Positions 39,117 to 61,366 of a stretch of DNA of 64,000 nucleotides are shown here, in pieces. Location of the stretch: NCBI RefSeq assembly GCF_024345495.1, contig NZ_JAGQBF010000009.1, positions 1 through 64,000 of the forward strand, in the 5' to 3' direction. The notes under the pieces were generated by a model. The model made no database searches. It was not told the origin of the DNA and saw only the letters and a list, made by a program, of their open reading frames with translations. Position numbers and translations under genes: made by a program. The stretch comes from Synechococcus sp. RedBA-s (GTDB lineage: Bacteria > Cyanobacteriota > Cyanobacteriia > PCC-6307 > Cyanobiaceae). Within the stretch, counting starts at the first letter, position 1, and each line of letters starts with the position of its first letter.

Positions 39117-39751
39117 GCGACTCCAGCCCCCAGCCGGCGCCGAAGGTGCTGGTGATCGCCAGCGGCAATGCCGGCAAGCTCAGGGAATTCACGGCACTGC
39201 TGGCCACTGAGGGCCCGGAGCTGGATCTGGAGGTGCGCAGCCAGCCCCAGGGCCTGGAGGTGGAGGAAACCGGCGACAGCTTTGCCGCCAACGCCCGCCT
39301 CAAAGCTGAAGCCGTGGCGCGGCTCACGGGGCACTGGGCGCTGGCCGATGATTCGGGTCTGAGTGTGGACGCCCTCGGCGGGGCGCCCGGCATCCACTCC
39401 GCCCGCTATGCCCCCACCGACCCCGAGCGAATCACCCGCTTGCTGGAGGCACTGGCGGGGGAACCCAACCGTCGGGCCCGGTTCACGGCAGCCCTGGCCC
39501 TGGCTGATCCCAGCGGCCAGACGGTGCTGGAGGTGGAGGGCGTCTGCATGGGTGAGATCCTCGACGCCCCCTGCGGGGAGGGCGGCTTCGGCTACGACCC
39601 GGTGTTCCTGGTACCTGAAACGGGCCTGAGCTTTGCCCAGATGACACCAGAGCTCAAGCGCCGTGTAGGCCATCGCGGCCGTGCCCTGGAAGCCCTGCTG
39701 CCGCCCCTGCAGCGGCTGTTCGCGGACGCAGGAAGGGAAACGGTGTGCTGA
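39113..39751 (+). CDS. rdgB: dITP/XTP pyrophosphatase
   Basis: A 212-residue Ham1/RdgB-family enzyme that removes non-canonical purine nucleotides (ITP, XTP) from the pool. Key motifs are VIASGNAGKLREF at the N-terminus, LADDSGLSVDALGGAPGIHS in the middle and GGFGYDPVF. The ATG at 39113 overlaps the mutase stop; the frame open from 39086 is not needed. It overlaps the start of the HAD gene downstream. Confidence 0.93.
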   Translation: MSDSSPQPAPKVLVIASGNAGKLREFTALLATEGPELDLEVRSQPQGLEVEETGDSFAANARLKAEAVARLTGHWALADDSGLSVDALGGAPGIHSARYAPTDPERITRLLEALAGEPNRRARFTAALALADPSGQTVLEVEGVCMGEILDAPCGEGGFGYDPVFLVPETGLSFAQMTPELKRRVGHRGRALEALLPPLQRLFADAGRETVC

Positions 39752-40775
39752 CGCGGGTCCTGGCGGCGGCTGCCGGAAGTCTGCTAAGCCTGGCGATGAT
39801 GTCCCCTTTGGCGTCTGCCATGGCCAGCCAGGCCACCGCCGCAGGGTCCGCTCAGCCCCTCCCTTCCTGGCGCGACGGTGCCACCAGATCGCGGATCCTG
39901 GCCTTCGTCGCCAGCGTCAGCCAGCCGGGGGGAGAGAGCTATCTGCCGCCCGAGGAGCGCATCGCGGTCTTCGACAACGACGGAACGCTCTGGTCGGAGC
40001 AGCCGATGTACGTGCAGCTGGCCTTCGCGATCGAGCGGGCCCGCGCCATGGTGGCCCAGCAGCCCAAGCTCGCCACCAATCCGATCATCGCCGCGGCGGC
40101 TGCAGCCGGTAACGGTGAAGCCGTACTCACCATGGGCATCAAGGATCTGCTGGAACTGGTGGGGATCACCCATGCCGGCATGAGCACCGATGTGTTCCGC
40201 GACCTGGTGCGCGAGTGGCTGGACAGCGCCTGCCACCCGACCCTGCAGCGGCCTTACACCGCCCTGACCTATCAACCGATGCGGGAGCTGCTCGAGCACC
40301 TGCGCGCCCATGGTTTCCGTACCTACATCGTTTCGGCCGGCGGCGTGGAGTTCATGCGGGTGTTCGCCGAGGAGGCGTATGGAATCCCGCCGGAGCAGGT
40401 GATCGGCTCCAGCATCGGCACCACCTACGCCCTGCGCGGCGGGTTGCCGGTGATCCTGCGCCAGAGCGAGGTGCAGACGGTCGCCGATCGGGCCATGAAG
40501 CCGATCCTGATCGAGCAGCTGATCGGCCGCAGGCCGATCAGCTGCCTTCGGCAACTCCGACGGTGATCTGGAGATGCTGGAGTGGACCACCAGCCTGCCG
40601 GGACCACGTCTGGGGGTGATCGTTCACCACGACGATCCCGAGCGGGAGGTGGCCTACGACCGCCAATCCGCCTTCGGCCATCTCGATCGGGCCTTGAGCG
40701 AGGCGCCCCGGCGGGGCTGGACGGTGGTGAGCATGCGCGACGACTGGGCCAGTGTGTTTGCGCCCCCTCCAGCGT
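39745..40775 (+). pseudogene. Frameshifted HAD-type exported phosphatase
   Basis: The gene starts at a GTG with AGGAAGGG eight bases before it and overlaps the rdgB stop. It encodes a signal peptide and motif I (VFDNDGTLW), then motif II (TYIVSAGGVEF). After GRRPIS near 40537 the frame shifts and ends at 40566. The correct continuation, AAFGNSDGDLEMLEW and so on, is in the +1 frame and runs to VFAPP near 40770, with no proper stop until 40939. The loss removes motif IV and the C-terminus. The intact paralog lies at 43683-44699 and reads GRRPIAAFGNSDGDLQML, which shows where the base change sits. Sequencing error is a possible alternative. Confidence 0.8.
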
Positions 40776-41537
40776 CAACCGGACCAGGCGGAGCAGTGGT
40801 CGACCGCTGTGCCGTGCCTCCGGCCAGCGAACCCAGGGCTGCGGGAGAGCGTGGCGCTGGGGAGCTCCCCGAACAAGCGGCGGCAATCCCGGGCGAAGTG
40901 CCCCGGATTGAGGAAGCCCCAGGAGGCCGCCAGCCCTGAGATCGTCGCGGCCCCCGGCTGGGCCTCCAGCAGCCCAGGGCGAACACCATGGAGCCGCTGC
41001 AGCTTGAGAAAGGCCATCGGTCCCATGCCGAGGTGGTCCTGAAAAACCCTGAATCAGGCTGCGCCGGCTGGTGCACACCTCCTGGCAGATCCCATCGAGG
41101 CTGATCACCTGGCCCGGGTGCAGGGCCATCCAGCCCTGGGCCTGCTTGACAATCTCGATCCGCGCTGGAAGCCTCGGCAAGCGGGAGCCGCCCCCTGCTG
41201 AGTGGGCCAGTGTTTCCACCAGCAGGGGGAGCAGATCCTTCTGCAGCCGATCCTGCCTCGAAGGCCAGCTCAGATGCGGGGAGGGCACTTCCGAGAATGC
41301 AAACAGCTGGTGTAAATGGCGGCACAGCCGCTGAAATCCCACCGTCTCGATCGGCAGCCAGTTGGAGCGGAACACCTGCTCATCGAGGCAGGTATGCCCC
41401 AGTCCCATGGCCTCCTGCTGGAAACGGGCCGGATCGATCGCCAGGACCGCCAGCGAGCGCCGGCCCGTGGCGGTGAGAGGCACCTCCCCACGGGTTGCCA
41501 TGCCAAAGAACCGCGGCGGCGGGAAGGGTCTGGCCAT
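40775..41537 (-). pseudogene. Frameshifted AraC-family regulator
   Basis: The minus strand encodes an AraC/XylS regulator. The N-terminal sensor part reads from the ATG at 41537 and is followed by the first helix-turn-helix (ISLDGICQEVCTSRRSLIQG). At a TTTTT run near 41046 the frame breaks; the continuation LGMGPMAFLKLQRLHGVR and the second DNA-binding helix region AATISGLAASWGFLNPGHFA are in another frame, ending at a stop at 40775. One base too many in the T run explains it. It is divergent from the first sulfatase (166 bp), the classic position of a local activator, so that sulfatase may have lost or changed its regulation. Confidence 0.78.
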
Positions 41538-41703
41538 GGGAGTGGAGCAGATCGCTCCGGAGCGCCCCTGGCGCCAACTGGGTCAGCTCGAGGGGGAGCC
41601 GAAGCTGAGCATGGGATTGGGTTGAGAACTGCACTTTTTGTATGGACTGATTTTGCCTTGGTGAGCAGACTGACCCTCAGGCACCCGCTCCCCTCCCCCT
41701 GTC

Positions 41704-43206
41704 ATGCCCAAAGGCCAACCCAACATCCTCATCCTCTGGGGCGACGACGTCGGCCAGAGCAACCTGAGCTGCTACAGCGATGGGCTGATGGGCTATCAGA
41801 CCCCCAACATCGACCGGGTCGCCAAAGAAGGTGGCCGCTTCATCCATTACTACGCCGAGCAGAGCTGCACCGCGGGCCGGGCCGCCTTCATCTCCGGCCA
41901 GAACGTGTTCCGCACCGGCCTCAGCAAGGTGGGCATGCCTGGTGCCCCGCTCGGCTTTCGGCCAGAGGATCCCACCATCGCCGGCCTGCTCAAGCCCCTC
42001 GGCTACCGCACTGGCCAGTTCGGCAAGAACCACTTCGGCGACCAGGACGAACATCTGCCGACGATGCACGGCTTCGATGAGTTCTTCGGCAACCTGTATC
42101 ATCTCAATGCCGAGGAAGAACCGGAGCAACGGGATTATCCCAAGCCGGAAGACTTTCCAAACTTCAAGAAGAACTTTGGCCCCCGCGGTGTATTGCATTG
42201 TTGGGCCAATGAGGATGGCACCCAGCGGATCGAAAATACCGGGCCGCTCACCAAAAAACGGATGGAGAACTGCGACGAAGAGTTCATAACTGAGGCCAAG
42301 CGCTTCATCCGTGATGCGGTGGCATCAGGGGAACCGTTCTTTGTGTGGTTCAACACGACCCACATGCACTTCCGCACCCACGCACGCGCCCAGGACATCG
42401 GCCGTTCCGGGCGCTGGCAGTCGGAGTATCACGACGTGATGATCTATCACGATGAGTGCATCGGCGAGATGCTCAACCTGCTCGATGAGCTGGGCGTCAC
42501 CGACGACACCATCGTGATGTACAGCACCGACAACGGCCCCCACATGAACAGCTGGCCCGATGCCGGCATGACCCCGTTTCGCAGTGAGAAGAACACCAAC
42601 TGGGAAGGGGCCTACCGGGTGCCCGCGCTGGTGCGCTGGCCCGGGCACATCGAGCCCGGCACCCTGTTCACCGGAATCGTCAGCCACCTCGACTGGCTTC
42701 CCACTTTGCTTGCCGCTGCGGGTGAAAGTGATGTCAAGGAAAAACTCCTGGCTGGCTATGCAGCCGGCAATCGCACCTACAAAGTGCATCTCGATGGGTA
42801 CAACATGCTCGACTACTGGACGGGCGAGACCGACAAGAGCCCGCGGCAGGAATTCTTCTACTTCTCCGACGACGGAGACCTCACAGCGCTTCGCTTCGAC
42901 AACTGGAAAATCATCTTCATGGAGCAGCGCTGCCCCGGCACCCTGCAGGTGTGGGCCGAACCCTTAACCGTGCTGCGCTGTCCGAAACTGTTCAACCTGC
43001 TCACCGATCCCTATGAGCGGGCCGACATCACCTCAAACACCTACTACGACTGGTATCTGGATCACTGCTACCTGATGATCCCCGCGCAGCCCTTCGTGGG
43101 CAAGCTGCTTGAAACCTTCAAGGAGTTCCCACCGCGGCAGAAGGCGGCCAGCTTCACGGTTGGCCAGGTGATGGAGAAGATCGCGGCCTCAATCGGCTCC
43201 ACTTGA
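41704..43206 (+). CDS. Sulfatase with CXAXR-type active site
   Basis: A 500-residue alkaline-phosphatase-superfamily sulfatase. The metal Asp pair is WGDDVG (residues 13-18). The formylglycine site is SCTAGRAAFISG with Cys55, giving C-T-A-G-R, the CXAXR variant rather than the common CXPSR. Later blocks GKNHFGDQ and YSTDNGPHMN (second metal site) are intact. There is no signal peptide, so it is probably cytoplasmic. It likely hydrolyses an organic sulfate ester; the substrate is unknown. It is divergent from the broken AraC gene, and its downstream DNA carries a copy of the leader of the formylglycine-generating enzyme gene. Confidence 0.88.
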   Translation: MPKGQPNILILWGDDVGQSNLSCYSDGLMGYQTPNIDRVAKEGGRFIHYYAEQSCTAGRAAFISGQNVFRTGLSKVGMPGAPLGFRPEDPTIAGLLKPLGYRTGQFGKNHFGDQDEHLPTMHGFDEFFGNLYHLNAEEEPEQRDYPKPEDFPNFKKNFGPRGVLHCWANEDGTQRIENTGPLTKKRMENCDEEFITEAKRFIRDAVASGEPFFVWFNTTHMHFRTHARAQDIGRSGRWQSEYHDVMIYHDECIGEMLNLLDELGVTDDTIVMYSTDNGPHMNSWPDAGMTPFRSEKNTNWEGAYRVPALVRWPGHIEPGTLFTGIVSHLDWLPTLLAAAGESDVKEKLLAGYAAGNRTYKVHLDGYNMLDYWTGETDKSPRQEFFYFSDDGDLTALRFDNWKIIFMEQRCPGTLQVWAEPLTVLRCPKLFNLLTDPYERADITSNTYYDWYLDHCYLMIPAQPFVGKLLETFKEFPPRQKAASFTVGQVMEKIAASIGST

Positions 43207-43682
43207 GGCCCATGGGGCGCTGTACTTCCTTTGACAGCCAGCGCCCCTCCTTGCTCCCTGCGCCCGCCCCGGGACCTCCATGGGGCGAGTGTCTTCCAAT
43301 AGCTCGATTCAAAACTCCGTTCCCACCGCTCCGCCAGCCACACGGAACCAGCCCCGTCGCCTACCGGCGCTGGACAGGGCGGGGATACTGGCGGCCATCA
43401 CCCCTCAACCTCAACAGGATCTGCGCAAGATTTAAAGGGAAGTCCCTCTCTTCAGCGGCAACCGCTCAAGCACCGTTGACATGGCATGTGTCGAAGGTGA
43501 TCCATTCGACGGCCAGCATGTCGTTTGTGACAGGAGCCTTCGGGCCTGATCACCTCTCTGGCCGTTGTACTCACAATTCGGACCTTCCAGTTTCTTCCAC
43601 CCATCCGGGAAAACCGCGGCGCCTAGGCCGGAGCGCAGATCAAGCAGGAACGCGGTGATTGGGGGCACAGAGAGACAGTCGT
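43207..43682. other. Intergenic stretch with a duplicated leader and relics
   Basis: About 475 bp between the first sulfatase and the HAD gene. The first part (about 43218-43375) is clearly related to 55433-55580, the leader and first codons of the formylglycine-generating enzyme gene: shared blocks TGACAGCCAGCG, ATGGGGC, TCCAAT and CCGTCGCC/ACCGGCG in the same order. The rest has no recognisable gene; an open minus-strand frame at 43432-43686 is judged chance. Confidence 0.6.
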
Positions 43683-44699
43683 TCATGGCTGGGGAAAGAG
43701 CACGGCCCAGTCCTTGGCCATGTCCACCACCACCCAGCCACGCTCCGGTGCCTGCCGCAGGGCCTCCACGAGCTTGCCGCTGCTGGTCGGATGGGCGTCG
43801 TAGGCGTACTCCCGGCGGGGGTCGGTGTGATGCACGAGCAGGCCGAAGCTGGGCCGCGGATTGGCCATGGTGGTGAATTGCAGCATCTGCAGATCGCCGT
43901 CGGAATTGCCGAAGGCGGCGATCGGCCGGCGGCCGATGAAGGCATGAATGCCCACGGGTTTGCCCGCCTTGTCGTCCACGAACAGGTGGTCGCTGGACTT
44001 CACCAGCACCGGCTGGCCCTGCCGCAGCTCAAAGCGGGTGAGGGCCGTGGAGCCCACCACCTGCTCGGGCGGGATGCCGTAGACCCGCTCGCTCCACACC
44101 CGCATGAAGTCGGCGCCGCCACCCGAAACAATGAACGTGCTGAAGCCTTTGGCACGCAGATGGCGCAACAACTCCAGCATCGGTTGGTAGGCGAGCTGGT
44201 CATAGGGCCTGCCGTAGCGCGGATGGCGGGCGGTGGCGAGCCAGCGTTGCACCGATGTCCGGAATTCCTCGGTGGTCATGCCGGCGTGGGTGAGCGCGAG
44301 CACCCGCAGGAGGCCCTCGTGGCGTGGGCCCTCCAGCAACCTGGCCAGATCGCCGCCCAGGGCCGCCTGCACCATGGGGTCCTCGCGCAGGGCCGGTTCC
44401 TGCTTCACCCGTTCGCGCAGGGTGTCGAGGGCGTAGAACATCTGGAACGGCAGCGGATTCTCGGGCCAGAGGGTGCCGTCGTTGTCAAAGGTGGCGATGC
44501 GCTCAGCGGCGGGAACGTAGTCGGGCGATCCAGGCCGGCTCACCCGCTCCACATAGGAGAGGATCGCCCGTTTGGCGGGCCCTTCCCTCCAGGAGGGAAG
44601 GGCATCGAGGGCCCCCACGGGCAGCGTCGGCGTCGCTGCCACCAAAAGCCCAAGAGCAACGGCCCTGGCGGCGCCGGGGGTGGAAAGGCGGAGGTCCAT
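43683..44699 (-). CDS. HAD-type exported phosphatase
   Basis: A 338-residue HAD hydrolase. A signal peptide (ARAVALGLLVAATPTLPVGA) sends it to the periplasm. Motif I is TFDNDGTLW, motif II FIVSGGGADF, and motif IV FGNSDGDLQML; a Lys lies in the motif III region (FVDDKAGKPVG). It is the intact paralog of the frameshifted gene at 39745. The ATG at 44699 gives the signal peptide; the frame open to 45038 is non-coding. It probably removes phosphate from an organic ester. It lies downstream of the porin gene on the same strand after about 200 bp. Confidence 0.85.
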   Translation of the reverse strand: MDLRLSTPGAARAVALGLLVAATPTLPVGALDALPSWREGPAKRAILSYVERVSRPGSPDYVPAAERIATFDNDGTLWPENPLPFQMFYALDTLRERVKQEPALREDPMVQAALGGDLARLLEGPRHEGLLRVLALTHAGMTTEEFRTSVQRWLATARHPRYGRPYDQLAYQPMLELLRHLRAKGFSTFIVSGGGADFMRVWSERVYGIPPEQVVGSTALTRFELRQGQPVLVKSSDHLFVDDKAGKPVGIHAFIGRRPIAAFGNSDGDLQMLQFTTMANPRPSFGLLVHHTDPRREYAYDAHPTSSGKLVEALRQAPERGWVVVDMAKDWAVLFPQP

Positions 44700-44775
44700 C
44701 GCGATGGGGTGGGTCGAATCCCCCGATGGTGCCAGAACCCCTGGTGCTGTAGATGATGTGCGTATCGGCTCTCCC

Positions 44776-44895: not shown

Positions 44896-46383
44896 TCAGA
44901 ACGTGATCTTGCCCCTGAGACCGGCGACGGTTTCGGTGGCGAAGTTGGCCCTGGCTGGATCGATGAGCTGCAGGTCGGCTGTGAGGATGAACCAGGGAGT
45001 GATGGCAAAGCTGTAGTAGATCTCCAGCCCCTTCTCATTATCGAGGGGAAGAAAGGGATCGATTGTGTCCTCTAGAGCTTTGCTCCAGTTGTAGTAGTAA
45101 ACGCCGATACCGAAGCTGTCATAGGGGCGATTGGCGAACATCCCCTCGCCACTGATGCCGCCCACGAACGACCAGCCGATCGGATTGGGGTTGCCACTGG
45201 TTCCAGCCAGCTTCCCGTAGAGCCCGATTCCCTTGCCGGGTCTCACCTTGCTGGGAAAGAGCGTATGCCCGAACTGGAGGCTCAGATTGTTGGGATAGCT
45301 CACACCGCTGTTGTCCTGAAGGCCTGGTGGCAGGAGGATCTGCTCCAGGTCCACCTTCTTCTCCGTACTGAACGTGTAGGTGAGGCCGAGATTGGAGGGC
45401 CGATTCCAGGCCTTTCCGTTCCACTGCGCCGACAGCGAGACATTGGCACCAGTTTCGAACAGATCCTCCACCCAGTAGTTGTTGGTCTGATCGGCCGGAT
45501 CGAACACCATGGCCGAAAGACTGACCTCACCGATCTGCTGGGACAGAATCCCCCCCATGATCACCGGCGGCACCAAACCATCGGGGGGAGCCACGAAGGC
45601 CAGATTCATGAAACGATCGATTCCCCAGCCCCCGAAGAAGGGATCGTTGGCGAGCAGGTCGATCACGTTGATCTTCCCGAGCAGCAGGCTGGTGCCGCCC
45701 CAGCGCTGGCTGTAATAAAGCGAACTCGCCACCAGCTCCTCCTCTGAGCCAAGAGGGAGCACCGCGCTTGTAGTGACGGGCCAGAGGGCGCCGCCGCGGA
45801 ATCCAGGCAGCCGCCCGCCCTCCAGCTCCAGGTGCAGGTGGAAGCCCCCGCCACGCCAGAGGCCCATCCGGCTGGTGTCGAGGTCGAGCAGAGCATCGAT
45901 CCGCCCGCCCGTGAAGAAGTCTTTCCCCTGGCCGTGCTTACTGAGGCTGCCCTGATCCCCAGACCACTGCCCCTGGTAGAAGCCCGTGGCGTAGAGGCGC
46001 AGCGTCCCCCCGTTCTCCGCCAGTTGGCTGCGATCGCCGCCCCAGTCACCGGTGAGGGTGGGGCGGTTCCAGAACGTGGAAGGGGGCTTGTCGGCGCTCT
46101 CCTTTTCAGCTGTGGAGGGGACGGATTCAGGTGAAGGAGTCGGAGTCGAGGCCTGAGAAAGAGTCGAAGACACTGCCGGGGCCGCAACCACGGAAAGGCA
46201 TTCCGGACCTGGGCAAGCAAGGGAGCCGAAGCCAGGATCCTTTGTTGTCCCTGCCGATTGGCCTGCGCCCTCTTCTGCTCGCCCTTCGGGGGGCAGAAGG
46301 GCGAGCGAAGCCGTCAGCGGCAGCATGCCGGCAGCGATCCAACCGATTAAGGCACGAACCATGAGCCAATGGCCTTGTCCCAT
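44896..46383 (-). CDS. OprB-type carbohydrate porin
   Basis: A 495-residue outer membrane porin. A signal peptide (IGWIAAGMLPLTASLALLPP) is followed by a Ser/Thr/Pro-rich linker and then the OprB barrel: FWNRPTLTGDWGGDRSQLAE with the family TGDWGG motif, repeated aromatic strand pairs and a terminal Phe (LRGKITF). It lacks the N-terminal SLH domain usual in cyanobacterial porins. It would let small organic solutes through the outer membrane. The ATG at 46383 (or 46362) is chosen over the frame start at 46524, which overlaps the sulfatase. It follows the sulfatase gene on the same strand. Confidence 0.85.
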   Translation of the reverse strand: MGQGHWLMVRALIGWIAAGMLPLTASLALLPPEGRAEEGAGQSAGTTKDPGFGSLACPGPECLSVVAAPAVSSTLSQASTPTPSPESVPSTAEKESADKPPSTFWNRPTLTGDWGGDRSQLAENGGTLRLYATGFYQGQWSGDQGSLSKHGQGKDFFTGGRIDALLDLDTSRMGLWRGGGFHLHLELEGGRLPGFRGGALWPVTTSAVLPLGSEEELVASSLYYSQRWGGTSLLLGKINVIDLLANDPFFGGWGIDRFMNLAFVAPPDGLVPPVIMGGILSQQIGEVSLSAMVFDPADQTNNYWVEDLFETGANVSLSAQWNGKAWNRPSNLGLTYTFSTEKKVDLEQILLPPGLQDNSGVSYPNNLSLQFGHTLFPSKVRPGKGIGLYGKLAGTSGNPNPIGWSFVGGISGEGMFANRPYDSFGIGVYYYNWSKALEDTIDPFLPLDNEKGLEIYYSFAITPWFILTADLQLIDPARANFATETVAGLRGKITF

Positions 46384-46520
46384 CGGCTTTCGTCCGGCAC
46401 TTCGCAAACCTCTGTGATTGATAGGTGAAGCCGGACCGTGGCCTAGCTCACCGACCAGCAGCTCAACAGGCCTAAGACGCAAGGCTGCCCCGAGCGCAGT
46501 GGCCACCAGAGAGACCAGGC

Positions 46521-48875: not shown

Positions 48876-49177
48876 CGGATCAGCCAGAAGGGAAAGGCAC
48901 TGCTGAGAACTTACCCAGCTGATCCGGAAGCGCCTTCCGGCTGTGGTGAGAACTACACCTGCCGCAACAGGGCGTCAGCCTGAAAGATCGTCAGGGTGCC
49001 GTGGTTTCACACCTTCACCGGCTGCCCCAGCGCGAGGAGAAGGGTGGCGCATGCCAGGCCCATCGGGCCGCCACCCAGAACGGCGATGCTCATTGGGGAT
49101 CTGGGGGCATCCAAACTCCGTTGCAGAAATCGGCTTCAGGCGTGCCCACCATCGCTGGCCGTGCAAGATTCCGGTCC
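48876..49177. other. Intergenic region with hairpin and a flavoprotein fragment
   Basis: About 300 bp between the divergent sulfatase and MarC genes. It contains a perfect hairpin CCGGAAG-CGC-CTTCCGG at 48924-48940, about 50 bp upstream of the sulfatase start, and the short minus-strand relic at 49007-49093. No other gene was recognised. Confidence 0.55.
49007..49093 (-). pseudogene. N-terminal fragment of an FAD/NAD-dependent oxidoreductase
   Basis: A 28-codon frame starting ATG at 49093 reads SIAVLGGGPMGLACATLL, a nucleotide-binding GxGxxG beta-alpha-beta start of flavin-dependent oxidoreductases. After the TGA, the same frame goes on with LTIFQADALL, like the E/D-containing second strand, then a further stop. 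The rest of the gene is gone. This is a truncated gene end, probably left by a rearrangement. Confidence 0.55.
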
Positions 49178-49966
49178 ATGCGCCCACCTTCCCCTCGGTC
49201 CTCCCTGCTGCTGCTGTTTGGCGGCGTTCTGGTGGCCTGCCTTGCGTCCGCGGCGGCGGCTGCCGTGCCAGCCTCGAGGTTCGAGGCCCAGGCCAGCCTG
49301 ATCCCGAAGCTGCGGGAGTTCTACGGCGGGATGGGTGGTTACCGGGCATTGATCCCGATCCTGATCCTCACGATCGGCCCGCTGAAGATCATCCCGGCTT
49401 TCGTGAAGCTCACCGCCCACGCCGATCCCCCCCTGCGCAGGCGCATGGCCTGGCGCGCCTCCCTGATCGCCACGGCCGTGCTGATCGTCCTGGCTCTCTC
49501 GGGCTGGAAGCTGCTGATCAACTACAACATCCCGCTCACGGCGATCCTGTTTTCCGGCGGACTGGTGCTGGTTCTGGTGGCGTTGCGGATGGTGCTGGCC
49601 CAGTACGGCGACGAGGACGATCGCCCCGATCCGCCCCCAGCCGAGCCCTCCATGGCCCAGGTGGTGCAACCGCTGGTGTTCCCCACAATTCTCACGCCCT
49701 ACGGCATCGCCGTGGTGATCACGATGTCGGCCCTTGTGCGACAGCTGGAGGGCACGCCGTTCTGGCTGATGGGTCTGCTGGTGGCCGTTATGGCGGTGAA
49801 CCTCCTGGCGATGCTGTTCGCCCGGCCGATCCTGCGGGTGATCCAGCCTCGCTTCCTCCAGCTGTTGGGATTGGTGCTGAGCGTGATCCAGCTGGCGCTC
49901 GGCTTCTCGATGATCTTCACGTCCATCGAGATTCAGGCGCTCGTGCTGCGCCAGATCCTGAGCTGA
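49178..49966 (+). CDS. MarC-family membrane protein
   Basis: A 262-residue integral membrane protein with an N-terminal hydrophobic lead (SSLLLLFGGVLVACLASAAA) and six later helices. Features of the MarC/UPF0056 family include ALIPILILTIGPLKIIPAF and the duplicated QPLVFPTILTPYGIAVVITM block. The role is unknown despite the name. The ATG at 49178 is preferred over the frame start at 49001. It is divergent from the sulfatase and convergent with the DUF1254 gene. Confidence 0.82.
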   Translation: MRPPSPRSSLLLLFGGVLVACLASAAAAAVPASRFEAQASLIPKLREFYGGMGGYRALIPILILTIGPLKIIPAFVKLTAHADPPLRRRMAWRASLIATAVLIVLALSGWKLLINYNIPLTAILFSGGLVLVLVALRMVLAQYGDEDDRPDPPPAEPSMAQVVQPLVFPTILTPYGIAVVITMSALVRQLEGTPFWLMGLLVAVMAVNLLAMLFARPILRVIQPRFLQLLGLVLSVIQLALGFSMIFTSIEIQALVLRQILS

Positions 49967-52773: not shown

Positions 52774-52863
52774 GCACATTGCCTCAAGAATTGCCGACCA
52801 AGGGCGGGTTAACTGACGGATCTGCGTTTACCTTATCTTCTGAATGGCCGGTAGCCCCCATGC

Positions 52864-55251
52864 CTAGTCATGGGCGCCAGCGAATGCCGTATGCATGGCG
52901 TGGAGCCTTAGTTCATCCTCCGGACTAAGATTGCGCGGCCCCAATTCGATGTCCAGGCGCTTGATCGTTCCAGTAAATGCAAACGGCTTGCGATAGGTAT
53001 CGCTGACGGGTGAACCCGTGTCCGAGCCCAGGCCGAAGGTATCGATGCCGAAACGGCCAGCGACGGTATTGGCAATCCGGGTTCGGCCCACTTCCTTGCC
53101 GTTGATCCCGATCACGGCTTCGCCACCCTTACCCAACCCACCACCGTCGTAGGCAAACTCCATGGAGACGGTGGACGCCCCTGCGGGGACAGGACAATTC
53201 GAGACGAGGTTGGTGCGCTCACGCTCAAACCAGTTGTAGTGATAAACGAGCTTGCCGTTCTGCACATACAAGGCGAAGCCCGCGGCCTGGCCACCTAACG
53301 CCAGGATCACCCCTTCCCCACCTTCAGGCATGTCGATCTGCGCGGTGATCCGATGGGAAACGTTCTTCGTGTTCGGTGCCGCGTTCTCCGGCAACCGCGA
53401 ACAACCGCTGTAGTACGTGAAGTGCCTGCGATTCGGGTCCGATCCGCCAGGAGATGGCTTCAGCACGGCCAGCCTCCCGGAACCTCGGTCATCGAGTGGG
53501 TAGACGTGGTTCTTCTCGGCCTCTTCGTCGAAAATCGCCTTGAGTTCTGCCAGTTTGTCTGGAAATTGAGCCGCCAGGTCCTTGGCTTCGCTGAAATCCT
53601 CATCGATGTTGTAGAGCTCCCACCGATCATTCTCCCAATGGGCAGGAGCAAGATCCTGCCGCCAGGGCAGCGAGTGCTGGGCGCAGGCAATCCAACCCTT
53701 GTCGTAGATGGCTCGATTGGTGAAAATCTCGAAGTATTGACGCTCGCGCACGGGGCGTGCCTCGGCGTCGTAGAAGGTTGAGGCGATGGAGACGCCATCC
53801 ATCGGCTTCTGCTCCACACCGTTGACGCTTTCCGGGGCTGGGATCTTCGCGACATCCAGGATGGTCGATGCAATGTCGATCAGGTGCGTGAACTGGGAGC
53901 GCATGGTCCCGGTGTCTTTGATCTTTGCCGGCCATGAGACCACCATCGGGTTACGGGTACCACCCAGGTGAGAGGCCACCTGCTTGACCCACTGGAACGG
54001 GGCATTGCCTGCCCAGGCCCACCCGAGCGGATAGTGCGGCTCCGTATGGGGCTCGCCGATCTCATCGAGGATCTTCATGGTGTCCGCCAGGGAGGAGGGA
54101 ACACCGTTGAGGTTCATGACCTCGTTGGCGGTGCCAGAAAAGCCTCCTTCGGAGCTGGCACCGTTGTCGCCGACGATGTAAAAGACCAACGTATTTTCGC
54201 CGTCGGGCAGTTCCTTCACCGCATCGAGCAGGCGGCCGCACTCGTGATCGGTGAAGGCGAGATAGCCGGCGAAGTTCTCCATGAACCGCGCGTACAGGGT
54301 TTTCTCATCGGCAGTGAGGGAATCCCACGGCTGAACCCATTCGGGGCGAGGCGTCAGTTCGGTATCAGGCGGGATGATGCCCATCTCCAACTGTCGCCGG
54401 TAGGTCTCCTCACGCACGGCATCCCAGCCGGCATCAAACTGACCTTTGAATTTTTCACGCCAGTCTCGCGGTGAATGGTGAGGGGCATGGGCCGCACCGG
54501 GGGCAAAGTACATGAAGACAGGCTTGTCCGGCGCCACGGACTTGCTGTACTGCATCCAGTCGATCGCCTTGTCAGTCATGTCCGTCATGAAGTGGTAGCC
54601 CTCTTCTGGCGTCTTCGCAGGTTCCACAGCGACGGTGTTCTCGAACAGCACTGGGTAGTACTGGTGCGTTTCACCACCGATGAAGCCGTAGAAGTAATCG
54701 AATCCCATGCCGGTCGGCCAGCGGTCAAAGGGGCCAACGACGCTGCTCTCCCAGTCGGGCGTGTTGTGGTTCTTGCCGAACCACGACGTGTTGTAGCCGT
54801 TGCCCCTCAGCACCTCGCCGATGGTCGCGGTGCTCTTTGGAATCATGTTGTTGTAGCTGGGGAAGCCCGTGGCCCATTCCGTGAGAAAGCCGGAAGCACA
54901 GTTGTGATGATTGCGTCCTGTGATCAGCGCAGCGCGTGAGGGCGCACAGATCGCCGTGGTGTGAAAACGCGAGTAGCGCAGCCCTTCCGCGGCGAGTTTG
55001 TCCAGTTGTGGCGTCGGTACCGGACCACCGAACGTACTGACCTGGCCGAAGCCCACATCGTCCAGCAGAATGACGACAACATTCGGGGCACCCTCCGGCG
55101 GTGCTGGAAGCCGGGGCCAGTCCCCTTCGGATTCGAGATAGGTCTTGCCGACCTTGCCCCGAAAGGGCAATTCCGGCAGCGGGAGCTTTGAACGATCCCG
55201 ATCGGCCCCGGGATTGTCACCTGCATTCGAGGGGGTCGTTTCAGCCTTCAT
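52864..55251 (-). CDS. Arylsulfatase, CAPSR type, 795 residues
   Basis: The third sulfatase. ILLDDVGFG holds the metal Asp pair, and the formylglycine site reads [16 protein letters not shown] with Cys102. The centre includes GKNHNTPDW and [17 protein letters not shown]-terminal beta-sandwich like that of the 784-residue sulfatase follows ([17 protein letters not shown]). GAGGGA precedes the ATG at 55251, so this is chosen over the TTG at 55263. No signal peptide. It lies upstream of the DUF1254 gene (90 bp) on the same strand and is divergent from the formylglycine-generating enzyme gene. It is distinct in sequence from the other two, suggesting different substrates. Confidence 0.92.
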
Positions 55252-55510
55252 TGGGTCCCTCAAGATTGACTGGATGGTTCTGTTTCACTGGAGTGCTTTT
55301 GTGGTCAGCTGACGCTGCCAGGAGGCATCCCCAGGAGCTTGTTGCCTGTAGCGAACAGCCTCGCCTGCCCATCAAGGATCCGAAGGCCCATTGGCGCCAA
55401 TCGTTAAGTTGTGAGGTGGTTGGCAAGAAGCGTGCCCTGTCTCTGACAGCCAGCGTCCCCCTCCATCCGGCCCATGCGCCCAGGGCCATCGATGGGGCCA
55501 GACTCCTCCA

Positions 55511-56509
55511 ATGGCCCGCTTCAGTTCCGTTTCTAACCCCATGCCGGAATCACGCAACCTCCCCGGTCGCCCGCCGGCGAGGGAGATGGTGTGGATCCCC
55601 GCGGGCAGCTTCCTGATGGGCTCGGATGTCCACTACCCCGAGGAGGCTCCGGCCCATCCGGTGAGCGTGGAGGGGTTCTGGATCGACCGCTCACCGGTCA
55701 CCAATGCCCAGTTCCTGAAGTTCGTGAAGGCCACGGGCTACATCACCTTGGCCGAGCGGCCGGCCGATCCAGCCCTCTATCCCGACGCGCTACCGGAGCT
55801 GCTGGCGCCCGCCTCGATCGTGTTCGTACCCCCGCCGGGGCCCGTGGGAAAGGGGGACCCCTACCAGTGGTGGCAGTACATCCCCGGTGCCGATTGGCGC
55901 CATCCGGAAGGCCGCGGCAGTTCGATCAAGAACCGCCCCAACCATCCAGTGGTGCATGTGGCCCATGAGGATGCGGCGGCCTATGCCGCCTGGAGCGGCA
56001 AGCAGTTGCCCAGTGAGGCCGAATGGGAGCGGGCCGCCTGGGGAGGCCTTGAAGGCGCCGAATTCGCCTGGGGAGATGAACTTCACCCGGAAGGCCGCCC
56101 GGTGGCCAACACGTTCCAGGGCGATTTCCCCCACCACAACAGCCTGCTTGATGGCTACGCGGGCACCTCGCCGGTGGGTGCCTTCCCCGCCAACGGCTTC
56201 GGTCTCCTCGATTGCATCGGCAACGTCTGGGAGTGGACCGACAGCTGGTATGGCGACCATGTCCTGGCGGCCGATGGGGGGCTCCCGGCCGAGGGGAGAA
56301 GCGGCTGTTGCGTTGCGGCAGATGCAGCGCGTGAGGCCAGCATCGACCCCACCAGCCAGCACGGTGCGATGCCCCGCAAGGTGGTGAAGGGTGGCTCGTT
56401 CCTTTGTGCCCCCAGCTACTGCCGCCGCTACAGGCCGGCGGCACGCATGGCCCAGGGCATCGACACCTCAACCTGCCACATGGGTTTCCGTTGTGTCGTG
56501 CGACTCTGA
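55511..56509 (+). CDS. Formylglycine-generating enzyme
   Basis: A 332-residue sulfatase-modifying factor that oxidises the active-site Cys of type I sulfatases to formylglycine. The copper/substrate cysteines are seen in GGSFLCAPSYCRRYR (Cys299, Cys304). The N-terminal block MVWIPAGSFLMGS and the signature EAEWERAAWGG are typical. It starts at the ATG at 55511 or the one at 55541, with no strong ribosome site for either. It is divergent from the CAPSR sulfatase (247 bp) and is the only intact FGE in the window, so it could serve all three sulfatases. No signal peptide. Confidence 0.92.
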   Translation: MARFSSVSNPMPESRNLPGRPPAREMVWIPAGSFLMGSDVHYPEEAPAHPVSVEGFWIDRSPVTNAQFLKFVKATGYITLAERPADPALYPDALPELLAPASIVFVPPPGPVGKGDPYQWWQYIPGADWRHPEGRGSSIKNRPNHPVVHVAHEDAAAYAAWSGKQLPSEAEWERAAWGGLEGAEFAWGDELHPEGRPVANTFQGDFPHHNSLLDGYAGTSPVGAFPANGFGLLDCIGNVWEWTDSWYGDHVLAADGGLPAEGRSGCCVAADAAREASIDPTSQHGAMPRKVVKGGSFLCAPSYCRRYRPAARMAQGIDTSTCHMGFRCVVRL

Positions 56510-56587: not shown

Positions 56588-57298
56588 GTGTCAACTCCAA
56601 AGAGGTTCACCTGGTACACCCGCCAGCAGCGCCGCCGGGCCTCGCCGTTCTTTTTGCTGGTGGATCAATCCTTTGGTTTTAGAATTCTGATCGCAGCGAC
56701 CCTGTTCTTTGTGTTGCTCTCTGCTGTGAATCGTTTCGACAACTGCCAGGGGGCTGAAGCAAGAGAGGACTGCCTAACTAGTAATTATCTGGACGTCATC
56801 AGTATTGGCAATGTGGAATCGTTCAGTATCGTGACGACGGCTTTCGTGTACATCCTGGAGGCTGGTCGGCGCAAGGAGCGAGAACATCAAGAGTTGATGA
56901 AACTAATCATATCGCAGCGAGAAGCGGGAATCCAGGTCAGTATCAGCCGTATCCGTGCCATCGAGGATCTCGCATCGGACGGTGTCTGGCAGGATGGCGT
57001 TGACTTACGAGACACGAACCTTGAGGGAGTGAGGATTCCTTTTAGCCGTTGGCGTGGGGCCAACTTCGCCAACTCCGTCTTGCGGAAGGCGAATTTCCAG
57101 GGTACGGATCTGAAGGGAGCCAACTTCACGGAGGCCGATCTCACCGGAGTCGATCTCACTCAGGCCATTTTCACTCGAGCCATCCTCACCAACGCTGATC
57201 TCACCGCTGCCCTACTCACCGGGGCCGTCTTCCAGGATGCTGATCTCAGGGGAACGGTCCTCGATCCGAGTGCCTCTGTCGTGACTGATCGTCCGTGA
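56588..57298 (+). CDS. Membrane-anchored pentapeptide-repeat protein
   Basis: A 236-residue protein. One clear hydrophobic helix (ILIAATLFFVLLSAV) and a second weaker one (FSIVTTAFVYILEA) precede about 14 pentapeptide repeats of A(D/N)LXX type (ANFANSVLRKANFQGTDLKG, then TEADLTG, TNADLTA, DADLRG). The repeats form a right-handed beta-helix. The start is GTG. The gene is AT-richer than its neighbours, suggesting a different origin. No function can be assigned. Confidence 0.78.
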   Translation: MSTPKRFTWYTRQQRRRASPFFLLVDQSFGFRILIAATLFFVLLSAVNRFDNCQGAEAREDCLTSNYLDVISIGNVESFSIVTTAFVYILEAGRRKEREHQELMKLIISQREAGIQVSISRIRAIEDLASDGVWQDGVDLRDTNLEGVRIPFSRWRGANFANSVLRKANFQGTDLKGANFTEADLTGVDLTQAIFTRAILTNADLTAALLTGAVFQDADLRGTVLDPSASVVTDRP

Positions 57299-57324
57299 TT
57301 CGATAAGACTCCTTGTGGATCCGA

Positions 57325-57930
57325 ATGCTGGCCCATCCCCCGGTTGCTGACGCCAATTCCCCCTCTGCCCAGGCGAGCCGGATCGCCGGTGCCTTCGTCG
57401 GCATTGCCGCGGCCTACGCGATCAGCCGCCATCTGGCCTTTCTGCCTTCCACGCTGTTCAGTTCCCTGGTTCTGGCCGCCACCTCCACGGTCATCGGCCG
57501 TAACCACAGCCCGCTGCGCTGGTGGGCCCTGCTCGGTACCACCTGTGGCGCGGTGCTGGGCTCCGCCGTGATGCTGGCGGAGAAACTCCAGCAGAGCGAA
57601 CCGCAGGGAGATCTCGCCACCAGGGCCCTGCTGCTCGGTTGTCTTGCCCTGGCCGGTTGCGTCGCCGGACACAGTCTCAGCCGCGATGCCGCTGGTGAGT
57701 CTGCCCGCCATCCCAGGGACCTACTGCGTTCGGCCAGTGCGCTCACCACCGGCATCTTCGCGGTGCTGGTTACCTTCACCTTTTTGCATTCCGGCCTGGA
57801 CACGGCTCGCACCTTCTCCAGCCGGCTGAGCACCTCCCTGACCATCCTGGTGGCGACGCTCACCATCCCTGGATGGCTGACCCATCTGCTGAATCGGGCG
57901 CCACCGAAGGGGCCCGGGCGGCGGCCCTGA
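57325..57930 (+). CDS. Predicted membrane protein, unknown family
   Basis: A 201-residue protein with about five hydrophobic segments (GAFVGIAAAYAISRHLA, STLFSSLVLAAT, WALLGTTCGAVLGSAVML, LLLGCLALAGCVAG, SALTTGIFAVLVTFTFL, TSLTILVATLTIPGWL). The ATG at 57325 is chosen over the GTG at 57313. It precedes the BASS-type transporter gene on the same strand. No family recognised. Confidence 0.65.
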   Translation: MLAHPPVADANSPSAQASRIAGAFVGIAAAYAISRHLAFLPSTLFSSLVLAATSTVIGRNHSPLRWWALLGTTCGAVLGSAVMLAEKLQQSEPQGDLATRALLLGCLALAGCVAGHSLSRDAAGESARHPRDLLRSASALTTGIFAVLVTFTFLHSGLDTARTFSSRLSTSLTILVATLTIPGWLTHLLNRAPPKGPGRRP

Positions 57931-57986: not shown

Positions 57987-58865
57987 ATGGACCAGGCAAC
58001 CCTGCTGATCGTCAGCGCCGCCCTGTTCACGATCATGTTCGCTCTGGGAGTTGGCCTGACCGGAGAGGCGATCGTCCTGCTTCGCCGGAGGCCCGCCCTA
58101 GTGATCCGGGTACTTATTGGGTCCTGTGTGCTGGTGCCTCTGGTCGGCCTGGTGCTGCTGAAGCTGCCCCTGAGCCTGGCCCTGACCAAACCGGCCCAGA
58201 TCGGCATCGCCCTGATGGCAGCCTCCCCGAGTGCTCCCCTCACCCTGCGCAAGGCCGGCAAGGTCGGTGGCGACCGCGAGCTGGCGGCGGTGCTCCAGGC
58301 CTGTGTGGCCGTGGCCGCGATCGTTTCGATCCCGCTGATCGCCGATCTGTACCAATCCGCCCTCGGGGTGTCCGGCTGGGACATCACCCCGAGGGCGGTG
58401 GCCCTGCAGGTGAGCCAGACCCAGGTGCTGCCCTTGCTGGCGGGCCTGATGCTCAGGCGCTGGCGGCCTAGATGGGCCCAGCGGCTGTCCGGTCCGCTCG
58501 ACAAGTTGGCGAATGGCCTGCTGCTGCTGCTGATCGTGCTGGTGCTGATCAAGTCGCTGCCACTGCTGCTGCCCTTCGCAGCCAGCAACCTGGCGGCCCT
58601 GGGTTTCATGGCCGTGATGGTGCTGGCGGCCCTGGCTATCGGCTATTGGATCGCTGGCCCTGACCCCCGGGAGCGCACCACGATCGCCCTGGTCACCTCG
58701 ATGCGCAACCCTGGGCTGGCCCTGTTGTTCGCCACGACCTTCGACAATGGCCTACCTGGCCTGAAACTCGCGGTGCTCTCTTACCTGCTGGTCACTGTGC
58801 TTCTCTCGATACCCTTCCTGCGCTGGCAGCGCCAGAAGCAGCAGGTGCCCTTCGTGACCCCTTAG
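57987..58865 (+). CDS. BASS-family (bile acid:sodium symporter-like) transporter
   Basis: A 292-residue membrane protein with about nine helices and the pattern of the bile acid:sodium symporter/arsenite-exporter fold (MFALGVGLTGEAIVLLRRRP at the N-terminus, MAASPSAPLTLRKAG, and TSMRNPGLALLFATTF). It may move an organic or inorganic anion with sodium. The TAG stop directly abuts the GTG of the DUF1622 gene, so they are coupled. Confidence 0.78.
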   Translation: MDQATLLIVSAALFTIMFALGVGLTGEAIVLLRRRPALVIRVLIGSCVLVPLVGLVLLKLPLSLALTKPAQIGIALMAASPSAPLTLRKAGKVGGDRELAAVLQACVAVAAIVSIPLIADLYQSALGVSGWDITPRAVALQVSQTQVLPLLAGLMLRRWRPRWAQRLSGPLDKLANGLLLLLIVLVLIKSLPLLLPFAASNLAALGFMAVMVLAALAIGYWIAGPDPRERTTIALVTSMRNPGLALLFATTFDNGLPGLKLAVLSYLLVTVLLSIPFLRWQRQKQQVPFVTP

Positions 58866-59252
58866 GTGGCCTGGATTGAATCCCCCGAGGCCCTGCTCCA
58901 GGGACTGGCCGGTGCCGTTCGATTTGTCCTGGAAACACTCTCGGTGCTCTGTGTGGTGGCTGGCGTGATCGCCACCTTTCGCCTTGGCTTGCCATTTCTG
59001 CCCGCCGCGGGCCATCACACTCACCGCCCCTCCAGCACAATCCGGATCAGCTTCGGCAGCTGGCTGGCGATGGCTCTGGAATTCCAGCTCGGCTCCGACA
59101 TCGTGGCCACCACCACGTCTCCCTCGGACAGCAACCTGATCCAACTGGCGGCGGTGGCCGTAATCCGCACCTTCCTCAATGTGTTCCTCGCCAGGGAACT
59201 GGAGACGGAACAGCGGTCGGTGCAGGATCGTTCTCTGCGGCCGAAACCCTGA
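58866..59252 (+). CDS. DUF1622 membrane protein
   Basis: A 128-residue protein with three helices and the family pattern SWLAMALEFQLGSDIVATTT followed by LIQLAAVAVIRTFLN, seen in DUF1622 proteins. The GTG start follows the stop of the transporter directly. It is followed 28 bp later by the DUF202 gene. Function unknown. Confidence 0.8.
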   Translation: MAWIESPEALLQGLAGAVRFVLETLSVLCVVAGVIATFRLGLPFLPAAGHHTHRPSSTIRISFGSWLAMALEFQLGSDIVATTTSPSDSNLIQLAAVAVIRTFLNVFLARELETEQRSVQDRSLRPKP

Positions 59253-59280
59253 TCAGCCAGTCCTTGCCTTCGGCAACTCC

Positions 59281-59667
59281 ATGAACCTCACCAACGAACT
59301 GGCCAAGGAGCGCAACCGGGAGGCGGCGGAGCGCACCCTGATGGCTTGGATCCGCACCTGCCTGTCGCTGATCAGCTTCGGCTTCGGTCTCGACAAGATC
59401 ATCGGAGCGATCGAGGCCAGCCGCTTCGAGGGCAGTTCCCACGCGCATTTCAGCGTGCGCTTGATCTCCATCGGATTTGTGCTCACGGGAATCCTGGCCA
59501 TGGCAGCCGCCACCCGCCAACACCGCAAGGTGCTGCGGCGGTTGAAGCAGGATGATTTCGTCTACCTCGATTCGCCCTCGATCTCGATGGCGACGGCCAT
59601 GGCACTCACCATGATCGGCCTGGTGGCCCTGGTGCTGCTGATTGCCGGTGGAGTCAGCACCTCATGA
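59281..59667 (+). CDS. DUF202/YidH-like membrane protein
   Basis: A 128-residue protein with an N-terminal Lys/Arg-Glu-rich stretch (ELAKERNREAAERTLMAWIR) and three helices, as in the YidH/DUF202 family. The ATG at 59281 is preferred over the frame start at 59179. It ends 25 bp before the SulP ATG. Function unknown. Confidence 0.82.
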   Translation: MNLTNELAKERNREAAERTLMAWIRTCLSLISFGFGLDKIIGAIEASRFEGSSHAHFSVRLISIGFVLTGILAMAAATRQHRKVLRRLKQDDFVYLDSPSISMATAMALTMIGLVALVLLIAGGVSTS

Positions 59668-59692
59668 GCGGCCTGATCTCCCATTCCCCGCC

Positions 59693-61366
59693 ATGGCTCG
59701 TTTCCCTGCTTCGCTCCTGCCCAGCGGCTACCACCAAGGGCTGGGGCGGGCGGATCTGGCCGCCGGACTGACCGCCGCGGCAGTGGTGCTGCCCAAGGCG
59801 ATGGCCTACGCCACCATTGCCGGTCTGCCGGTCCAGGTGGGTTTGTACACGGCCCTGGTGCCGATGGCGGTGTATGCCCTGCTGGGCAGCTCCAGACCCC
59901 TGAGCGTCAGCACCACCACCACCCTGGCCATCCTGGTGGGCAGTGAGCTGGAGAGGCTGACGCCGGCCGGCGAACCCAGCGCCCTGATGGCGGCGAGCGC
60001 CACTCTGGCCCTGTTGGTGGGAGCGATGCTGTGCGGCGCGGCCCTGCTGCGGCTGGGCTTCATCGCCAACTTCATCTCCGAATCGGTGCTGGTGGGTTTC
60101 AAATCCGGCATCGGTCTGGTGATCGTGGTGGATCAGCTGCCCAAGTTGCTGGGGCTGCATGTGGAGAAGGCCGGCTTTTTCCGCGACCTGGCCGCCCTGC
60201 TGGGAGACCTCCCCCAGACCTCGATCGCCACGCTGCTGCTCTCGGCCGGGCTGTTCAGCTTGCTGTTCAGCCTGAAGCGGCGGTGGCCGTCGGTGCCGGC
60301 GCCGCTGGTGGTGGTGGCGATCGCCATCGCCAGCTGCGCCCTGCTGGGGCTCGATCGCTTTGGGGTAGAGCTGGTGGGCACCGTGCCCAGGGGCCTGCCC
60401 GCCCTCAGTTTGCCCCGGCTGGATCTGCTTGGCGGGCTCTGGCCAGGCGCGGCAGGCATCGCCATGATGAGTTTCACTGAAAGCATCGCGGCGGCTCGGG
60501 CCTTTCGCGCTGCCGATGAACCCTCCCCGAACCCCGATCGGGAACTGCTGGCCCTTGGGCTGGCCAACATCGGCGGCAGCTTGTTCGGAGCGATGGCGGC
60601 GGGCGGTGGCACCACCCAGACCGCCGTGAACCGCCAGGCCGGTGCCCGCAGCCAGGTGGCCGAACTGGTGACGGCCGGGGCGGCCCTGGCCACGCTGCTG
60701 CTGCTGGCCCCCTGGATTGCCCTGATGCCCCTGGCCGCCCTGGCGGTGGTGGTGATCGTGTATTCCTTCGAGCTGATCGCCCCGGGCGAATTCCTGGCGA
60801 TCCGTCGCGTCCGCCACGCCGAATTTCACTGGGCCGTGGTGGCCTTCCTGGGGGTGGTGTTTCTGGGAACCCTCAAGGGCATCCTGGTGGCCGTGATCCT
60901 CTCCCTGATCGCCCTGGTGCAGCAGGAGGTGAACCCGCCTGTGTATGCCATCGGCCGCAAGCGCAGCACCGATGTGTTCCGGCCGCTCTCAGCTAGGCAT
61001 CCCCGCGATGAAACCTGGCCGGGGCTGCTGCTGCTCCGTGCCGAGGGGCGCCTGTTCTTCGCCAATGCCCATGGGGTGCTCCTGCGGATGCGCGCGGAGA
61101 TCAACCAGCACCAGCCAAGGGTGGTGGTGCTGGATGGCAGCGCCGTGATCGACATCGAATACTCCGCCCTCAAGGTGATCACCGAAGCGGAGCGGCGCCT
61201 GGATCGGGAGGGAATCTCCCTCTGGCTGGCGGGGTTGAACCCCACGGTGCTGGAAGTGATCCGCCGATCGGAGCTGGGCGAGCGTCTGGGCAAGGAGCGG
61301 ATGCACCGCAACATCGAGCGGGCGGTGGAGCACTACCTCGCCGCGGGGCTGGAGGCGAAAGGCTGA
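59693..61366 (+). CDS. SulP-family anion permease with STAS domain
   Basis: A 557-residue membrane protein of the SulP family. The first helix block AAGLTAAAVVLPKAMAYATI is the family signature region, followed by about eleven more helices. The STAS domain at the C-terminus has VVVLDGSAVIDIEYSAL. SulP proteins move sulfate, bicarbonate or other anions; the closeness to three sulfatases favours sulfate, but BicA-type bicarbonate uptake is the main alternative. The ATG at 59693 is preferred over the TTG at 59642. Confidence 0.88.
   Translation: MARFPASLLPSGYHQGLGRADLAAGLTAAAVVLPKAMAYATIAGLPVQVGLYTALVPMAVYALLGSSRPLSVSTTTTLAILVGSELERLTPAGEPSALMAASATLALLVGAMLCGAALLRLGFIANFISESVLVGFKSGIGLVIVVDQLPKLLGLHVEKAGFFRDLAALLGDLPQTSIATLLLSAGLFSLLFSLKRRWPSVPAPLVVVAIAIASCALLGLDRFGVELVGTVPRGLPALSLPRLDLLGGLWPGAAGIAMMSFTESIAAARAFRAADEPSPNPDRELLALGLANIGGSLFGAMAAGGGTTQTAVNRQAGARSQVAELVTAGAALATLLLLAPWIALMPLAALAVVVIVYSFELIAPGEFLAIRRVRHAEFHWAVVAFLGVVFLGTLKGILVAVILSLIALVQQEVNPPVYAIGRKRSTDVFRPLSARHPRDETWPGLLLLRAEGRLFFANAHGVLLRMRAEINQHQPRVVVLDGSAVIDIEYSALKVITEAERRLDREGISLWLAGLNPTVLEVIRRSELGERLGKERMHRNIERAVEHYLAAGLEAKG

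Follow-up and report, generated by a model that had tools for sequence, protein, structure and literature searches.

Type I formylglycine sulfatases are represented among solved structures by AtsA, the Pseudomonas aeruginosa arylsulfatase (PAS, PDB 1HDH), and the formylglycine-generating enzyme (FGE) by 6S07, which we take to be that of Thermomonospora curvata; VPA0735 and VPA0106 (PDB 2P3Y, 3VB9, 3U07) stand for the DUF1254/DUF1214 proteins, to which no function has been assigned. In picocyanobacteria, S1 sulfatases have been reported in freshwater strains and as absent from marine ones (PMC9361551). Here we describe a locus of Synechococcus sp. RedBA-s (Cyanobiaceae), between positions 39745 and 61366 of the first 64,000 nucleotides of contig NZ_JAGQBF010000009.1 (this whole stretch is called the window), in which three sulfatase genes (SUL1, SUL2 and SUL3) lie with an FGE gene, a porin gene, transporter genes and a gene for a DUF1254/DUF1214 protein. 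The locus consists of two layers, a conserved outer locus of the Cyanobiaceae and an inner inserted block of 12.3 kb. We consider it likely that a conserved picocyanobacterial sulfate-ester locus has been enlarged by the insertion of further sulfate-ester genes, and that the whole serves as a cytosolic hydrolysis module. The accessible part of PMC9361551 gives an account of sulfatases without an FGE-BASS-DUF1254 locus, a hot spot or an insertion, unlike what is found in the window; by their description there, the CK_00006730 S1 sulfatases probably belong to the same gene class as SUL1.

All three sulfatases exceed the PF00884 cut-off and show the C-x-P/A-x-R signature, in its standard form in SUL2 (CSPSR) and SUL3 (CAPSR) and with Ala for Pro in SUL1 (CTAGR), which bears out the three active-site variants of a preliminary description of this DNA. 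All 35 distinct SUL1-type sequences that were read, that of the window among them, have CTAGR. FGE probably accepts CxAxR as well; a literature search on CTAGR and CxAxR returned nothing useful. In 21 of 21 aligned SUL3/SUL2-type proteins D68, D69, C106, R110, K164, H166, H259, D366, N367 and K427 are invariant, and with SUL2 aligned to PAS these residues match the arylsulfatase pocket, where Asp-Asp, Lys-x-His, His, Asp-Asn and Lys are the metal and sulfate ligands; in SUL1 the metal/sulfate motifs are present as judged by eye. The SUL3 model (predicted local distance difference test score, pLDDT, 84.4) reaches target TM-scores of 0.85-0.87 to P. aeruginosa arylsulfatase entries (1HDH 0.85). 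AtsA has the same core fold and catalytic residues, but SUL2 and SUL3 are about 250-260 residues longer, and the SUL3 model adds a C-terminal region (residues 614-774), mainly of beta strands and modelled with high confidence; a single-sequence fold of this region gave a pLDDT of 43 and was not used. SUL1 resembles PDB 7AJ0 and human arylsulfatase A more than AtsA. By sequence, SUL1-3 fit type I (S1) formylglycine sulfatases, and their hydrolysis of sulfate esters is predicted.

The FGE of the window shares with 6S07 the PF03781 domain and, in the alignment of GGSFLCxxSYC, both active-site cysteines, the alignment showing extra loop residues; the GldK, EgtB, SenA and PvdO models match it below their cut-offs. 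That one FGE serves three sulfatases, as was first described, holds locally, but the genome contains two more FGE-like genes (C56:81475, C2:46606); five more sulfatase-like places lie on C1, C2 and C56.

Sulfatases belong to a promiscuous superfamily together with phosphonate and phosphodiester hydrolases, and the preliminary description had allowed that the SUL proteins might prove to be such hydrolases. PF01663 is indeed over its cut-off in SUL2, with 31 bits against 229 for PF00884, and NCBIfam PehA matches all three proteins, far below its cut-off. However, phosphonate hydrolases carry Asp-His at the Asp-Asn position, and an unaligned pattern scan found Asp-Asn-Gly without Asp-His-Gly in 35 of 35 SUL1-type and 76 of 86 SUL2/3-type sequences (Asp-His-Gly only in 2 of the 86). 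Furthermore, the lysines and histidines of the sulfate pocket are invariant in the 21 aligned rows, and the nearest folds are the P. aeruginosa arylsulfatase and glycan sulfatases. On these active-site residues and fold neighbours the hydrolase assignment was rejected, and we regard it as highly improbable.

The outer layer was followed through 151 genomes of the Cyanobiaceae. Relatives of SUL1 (E 1e-50 or better) are present in 39 of them, the genome of the window included, and in 13 of 59 genera, the best match in each of the 39 reaching at least 76% identity. Close relatives of the window FGE (at least 71%) occur in 36 of the 151, and FGE-like proteins in 76 if distant ones are counted too. 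FGE lies downstream of SUL1 on the same contig and strand in 35 of the 38 other SUL1 genomes; the gap between the two genes, counted without G109, G133 and G152 (SUL1 present, no close FGE), is 7-213 bp in 27 of the 35 relatives and 1,150-9,016 bp in eight, and it is 12,307 bp in the window. Genomes G001, G005 and G006 of the same genus stand outside the 151-genome sample. Synteny was read in 28 of the 35 relatives that have SUL1 and FGE, on stretches of 14-20 kb, some of which reach contig ends: BASS is present in all 28 (in G078 merely as a 42-residue piece), DUF202 in 26, DUF1622 in 24, the N-terminal half of AraC in 20, a HAD gene in 17 and SulP in 10. Because the SUL1-FGE order is conserved and BASS, DUF202 and DUF1622 recur, these five genes constitute an old family locus, to which HAD, AraC and SulP belong less constantly; in some relatives these neighbouring genes stand upstream of SUL1 and not downstream of FGE. 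Further upstream, GcvT-like, RecB-like, PMM and ITPase genes keep their order in the genus-mates G003, G004, G007 and G008. The gene set had been called not standard in picocyanobacteria, with gene order in relatives as the proposed check: this is correct for the inner 12.3 kb, whose order is not kept, but not for SUL1-FGE with BASS, DUF1622 and DUF202.

The inner layer, placed between SUL1 and FGE, holds HAD2, OprB, SUL2, MarC, a doubled DUF1254/DUF1214 protein and SUL3, and as a unit it occurs in none of the 28 relative stretches. The segment 43229-43397, directly behind SUL1, is 68% identical over 171 columns to 55441-55607, where the upstream region and first codons of FGE lie, with an alignment score of 57 against a maximum of 21 among 200 dinucleotide shuffles. 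In the simplest reading, which we consider probable, the beginning of an FGE gene stayed behind here at the former SUL1-FGE junction and decayed; alternatively, the upstream region was duplicated. Together the two segments make an imperfect repeat of about 170 bp that flanks the block. It was noticed by reading the spacers, a repeat finder having missed it as a gapped match. No integrase or transposase was seen among the large open reading frames (ORFs) scanned in the block, small ones lying outside the scan. The GC content at third codon positions (GC3) of the six inserted genes is 0.74-0.84 (SUL3 0.735, OprB 0.738) and that of the flanking genes 0.76-0.88, except for 0.63 in the pentapeptide gene; a delimitation of mobile-element ends by composition was rejected, since GC3 has no sharp edge. 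Promoter and terminator scans of the region gave counts no higher than in shuffles.

The SUL1-FGE junction is an insertion hot spot, with variable cargo between conserved genes. More than 1 kb separates the two genes in eight of the 35 relatives and in the window, and the cargo differs: a SUL1 paralogue with DUF1254/DUF1214 genes in G002, G099 and G136 (Pfam on four of these proteins), a HAD gene in G061, a transposase and MscS in G102, MscS in G149 and G128, and a methyltransferase in G155. In about half of the cases the cargo is thus sulfatase-related. G002 (stretch L091) and G099 (stretch L114), which belong to different genera, share a sulfatase paralogue, DUF1254/1214 genes, DUF1622 and MscS. 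L114 also contains a second, degraded FGE.

The affinities of the DNA change along the locus. Over positions 37001-41168 the DNA shares 93% identity with G007, the nearest relative; beyond 41168 the identity to G007 is 85% in SUL1 and 80% in FGE, and the BASS-DUF1622 part is 64-74% identical or unmatched. FGE, BASS and DUF202 are closer to other lineages (G067, G003, G002) than to G007. The 5' half of AraC is 71% identical to G013, of another genus, and 37-38% to G007, and its affinity switches from G013-like to G007-like near 40980-41170, close to the AraC frameshift. These changes suggest that the tract carrying the block arrived by recombination between conserved genes. The frameshifts of HAD1 (near 40550) and AraC (near 41045) lie about 0.5 kb apart; both frames are intact in the relatives read, and the HAD1 counterpart in stretch L093 is a single reading frame.

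Judged by identity and tree position, SUL3 is a type horizontally shared with other phyla. It is 80-81% identical to proteins of Caulobacter and Phenylobacterium, 79% to Bradyrhizobium, 74% to Novosphingobium and 72% to Mycobacterium, and its best other full-length match reaches 50% among the 151 family genomes and 54% when 291 genomes of the class are searched (both searches report matches at E 1e-230 or better, so that fragments such as the G004 copy fall outside). A tree of 75 proteins, computed by a quick method without bootstrap and without the G004 fragments, places it with Caulobacter, Phenylobacterium and Bradyrhizobium (Shimodaira-Hasegawa-like approximate likelihood ratio test, SH-aLRT, 95), inside a group that also contains Novosphingobium and Mycobacterium (SH-aLRT 98). 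The genus-mate G004 carries, away from its SUL1-FGE locus (stretch L144, G004:C1:1324001-1344000, about 7938-10975), a truncated orthologue of SUL2 and, directly behind it, a broken SUL3-type gene, the pieces of which are 73, 68 and 60% identical to the window SUL3 over residues 295-778; over the same residues eleven other cyanobacterial copies reach 32-57% and the alphaproteobacterial copies 63-83%. This broken copy points either to repeated entry of the SUL3 type into the genus or to a single entry with later loss. SUL2 beside SUL3 is not unique to the window: 10 further genomes of the family have SUL2 orthologues (85-90%, one of them partial) elsewhere in the genome, with a SUL3-type gene alongside in 6 of the 10 loci inspected, and in the Mycobacterium locus a SUL2-type gene (64%, one stop) precedes SUL3 by 2.4 kb. 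In the tree SUL2 groups with G102 and G149. Close relatives of OprB (E 1e-40) are found in 3 of the 151 family genomes, namely G136 and G149 besides the genome of the window, and in G149 a further FGE-sulfatase-HAD cluster is found at a distance of about 10 kb from it. Typical cyanobacterial porins carry an SLH domain; none was found in the Pfam scan of the window OprB.

The block might nevertheless be neutral or decaying baggage, with only SUL1-FGE and the carriers in use, and the frameshifts of HAD1 and AraC, the absence of the block as a unit from the relative stretches and the broken G004 copy could be read in this way. However, the six inserted genes are all long open frames whose GC3 is near that of most flanking genes, and SUL2 and SUL3 retain their catalytic residues; we therefore think it improbable that the block is mere baggage.

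Concerning the place of the reaction, no signal peptide is evident by eye on the sulfatases or on FGE, and HAD1, HAD2 and OprB have one, also by eye. Since the sulfatases and FGE lack an evident signal peptide, the hydrolysis of sulfate esters is probably cytosolic, in agreement with the first suggestion of hydrolysis inside the cell. That suggestion also let the esters enter by the porin, but a porin cannot pass them over the inner membrane, and a cytosolic pathway would need an inner-membrane carrier. BASS, the constant neighbour of SUL1 and FGE, is for this reason the better and the likeliest candidate. It matches solved bacterial sodium/bile-acid carrier structures (from E 1e-6), and transport of sulfate esters is proposed for it by analogy with SOAT/SLC10A6, a human BASS relative that imports sulfated steroids according to PMC10298714.

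In the mechanism that we propose, a cytosolic FGE would convert the active-site cysteine of SUL1, and presumably those of SUL2 and SUL3 too, to formylglycine. Sulfate esters would pass the outer membrane via porins (OprB here), the BASS-family carrier would bring them across the inner membrane, their cytosolic hydrolysis would give sulfate and alcohol, and SulP would move sulfate or a related anion. The cytosolic location, the carrier role of BASS, the purpose of ester scavenging and the maturation of the imported sulfatases by the window FGE are what we infer here.

Alternatively, the sulfatases could trim or recycle the sulfated envelope or exopolysaccharide of the cell itself instead of scavenging esters from outside. 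The SUL3 C-terminal beta region could bind glycans, and in PMC9723792 mat cyanobacteria are reported as the main source of sulfated exopolysaccharide, with sulfatases predicted to be exported. Unlike those exported enzymes, the sulfatases of the window have no evident signal peptide by eye, and the constant presence of BASS as a neighbour also speaks against this use; we hold the use of own polysaccharide to be unlikely.

Several observations weigh against a cytosolic ester-hydrolysis module enlarged by insertion. CTAGR of SUL1 departs from the usual CxPxR, that signal peptides are lacking is a judgement by eye, and the relation of BASS to the solved carriers is distant. SulP matches PF00916 and STAS but stays below the curated NCBIfam sulP cut-off (369.1 bits vs 380.45), and is found in the minority of relative stretches counted above. 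The MscS, methyltransferase and transposase cargo at the junction has no evident link to sulfate esters, and the frameshifts of HAD1 and AraC may reflect partial decay of the locus or an assembly error at this place.

Additional evidence concerns the DUF1254/DUF1214 protein. Of 145 genomes of the class, 19 contain PF06863. Outside the family 18 DUF1254 stretches were read, and 10 of them, from 9 genomes, contain a sulfatase, compared with none of 18 control stretches and none of 20 DUF1622-centred ones (Fisher p 0.0003; the 18 places come from 14 genomes, stretches of the same genome are not independent, and this p ignores shared genomes). Controls L169, L170, L174, L177 and L178 are not random, their contigs being taken from the DUF1622 list and four of them spanning a DUF1622 gene, and the DUF1254 stretches L148 and L159 are unmatched by our own weak two-sequence DUF1254 profile. 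DUF1622 itself was rejected as a general sulfatase marker on the count of its own stretches. FGE, HAD2 and BASS are each present in 5 of the 18 DUF1254 stretches and in none of the 18 controls, and there is no clear difference between the two sets of 18 for SulP (6 vs 1), DUF1622 (6 vs 3) and DUF202 (4 vs 2). In another cyanobacterial family, stretch L150 (G059:C1:2365501-2385500) unites nearly the whole gene set in 20 kb: a DUF1622 piece, FGE, BASS, SulP, a SUL2-type sulfatase, DUF1254, HAD2 and a SUL1-type sulfatase. Among 15 non-cyanobacterial genomes reached via SUL3 relatives, and thus picked for sulfatase presence, DUF1254 occurs in 13, and for at least 9 of the 47 DUF1254 places (in 6 genomes) a listed sulfatase is found no more than 10 kb away.

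The two halves of the 911-aa protein of the window match VPA0106 and VPA0735, one each; unlike these, its two units are fused in one chain and stand in a block with two sulfatases. In other genomes, e.g. G005:C9 (827972, 829725), the two DUF1254-DUF1214 units are separate neighbouring genes. A search of one literature library did not find 'DUF1254' together with a word beginning 'sulfatase', forms such as 'arylsulfatase' not being covered; DUF1254 itself is mentioned there in five papers. We put forward tentatively, as one joint proposal, that the SUL1-FGE junction may act as an acquisition port, where sulfatase cassettes from different genera and phyla land repeatedly beside the maturation enzyme they need, and that DUF1254/DUF1214 proteins may be dedicated sulfate-ester proteins in cyanobacteria, proteobacteria, Bacteroidota and Planctomycetota.

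The features of the locus are collected in Table 1. The genes named in the preliminary description (sulfatases, FGE, OprB porin, exported HAD phosphatases, DUF1254/DUF1214 protein and SulP) were all found again at their coordinates with Pfam matches over cut-off, but AraC, BASS, DUF1622, DUF202 and MarC had been left out of its list, and the HAD gene at 39745 proved to be frameshifted. The name AraC comes from a helix-turn-helix sequence judged by eye, the scanned piece having no Pfam match.

Table 1. Genes and other features of the sulfate-ester locus in the window
Feature	Position	Strand	Remarks
HAD1 phosphatase, exported type (by eye)	39745..40939	+	PF12710/PF00702; frameshift near 40522-40566, two ORFs; position conserved
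AraC-type regulator	40900..41537	-	Frameshift near 41045; oriented away from SUL1; outer locus
SUL1 sulfatase, CTAGR	41704..43206	+	PF00884; conserved family-locus gene
Probable decayed copy of the FGE start (upstream region, first codons)	43229..43397	+	Alignment to 55441-55607
HAD2 phosphatase, exported type (by eye), inserted block	43683..44756	-	PF12710; 74% relative at SUL1-FGE junction of G061
OprB-family porin, inserted block	44896..46524	-	PF04966 only; earliest possible start overlaps SUL2 stop by 4 bases
SUL2 sulfatase, CSPSR, inserted block	46521..48875	-	PF00884
MarC-family membrane protein, inserted block	49001..49966	+	PF01914
911-aa protein, two fused DUF1254-DUF1214 units, inserted block	50044..52779	-	PF06863 and PF06742, two stretches each
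SUL3 sulfatase, CAPSR, horizontally shared type, inserted block	52864..55263	-	PF00884
Formylglycine-generating enzyme (FGE)	55511..56509	+	PF03781; start may be 55541
Pentapeptide-repeat protein adjoining FGE	56588..57298	+	PF00805; common to part of relatives
Membrane-type protein, no family assigned	57313..57930	+	Common to part of relatives
BASS carrier (sodium/bile-acid symporter family)	57987..58865	+	PF01758, E 1.7e-18, over cut-off
DUF1622 protein	58866..59252	+	PF07784
DUF202 protein	59269..59667	+	PF02656
SulP-family permease with STAS domain	59642..61366	+	PF00916, PF01740

In this work a gene set that had looked like an odd accessory collection was recast as a defined, conserved sulfate-ester locus of the Cyanobiaceae with a mapped insertion hot spot, and a sulfatase gene shared across phyla, SUL3, was found placed beside an FGE. 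The link between DUF1254 and sulfatases is the part most worth following: if it is true, DUF1254/DUF1214, a long-unexplained family, would gain a testable function.

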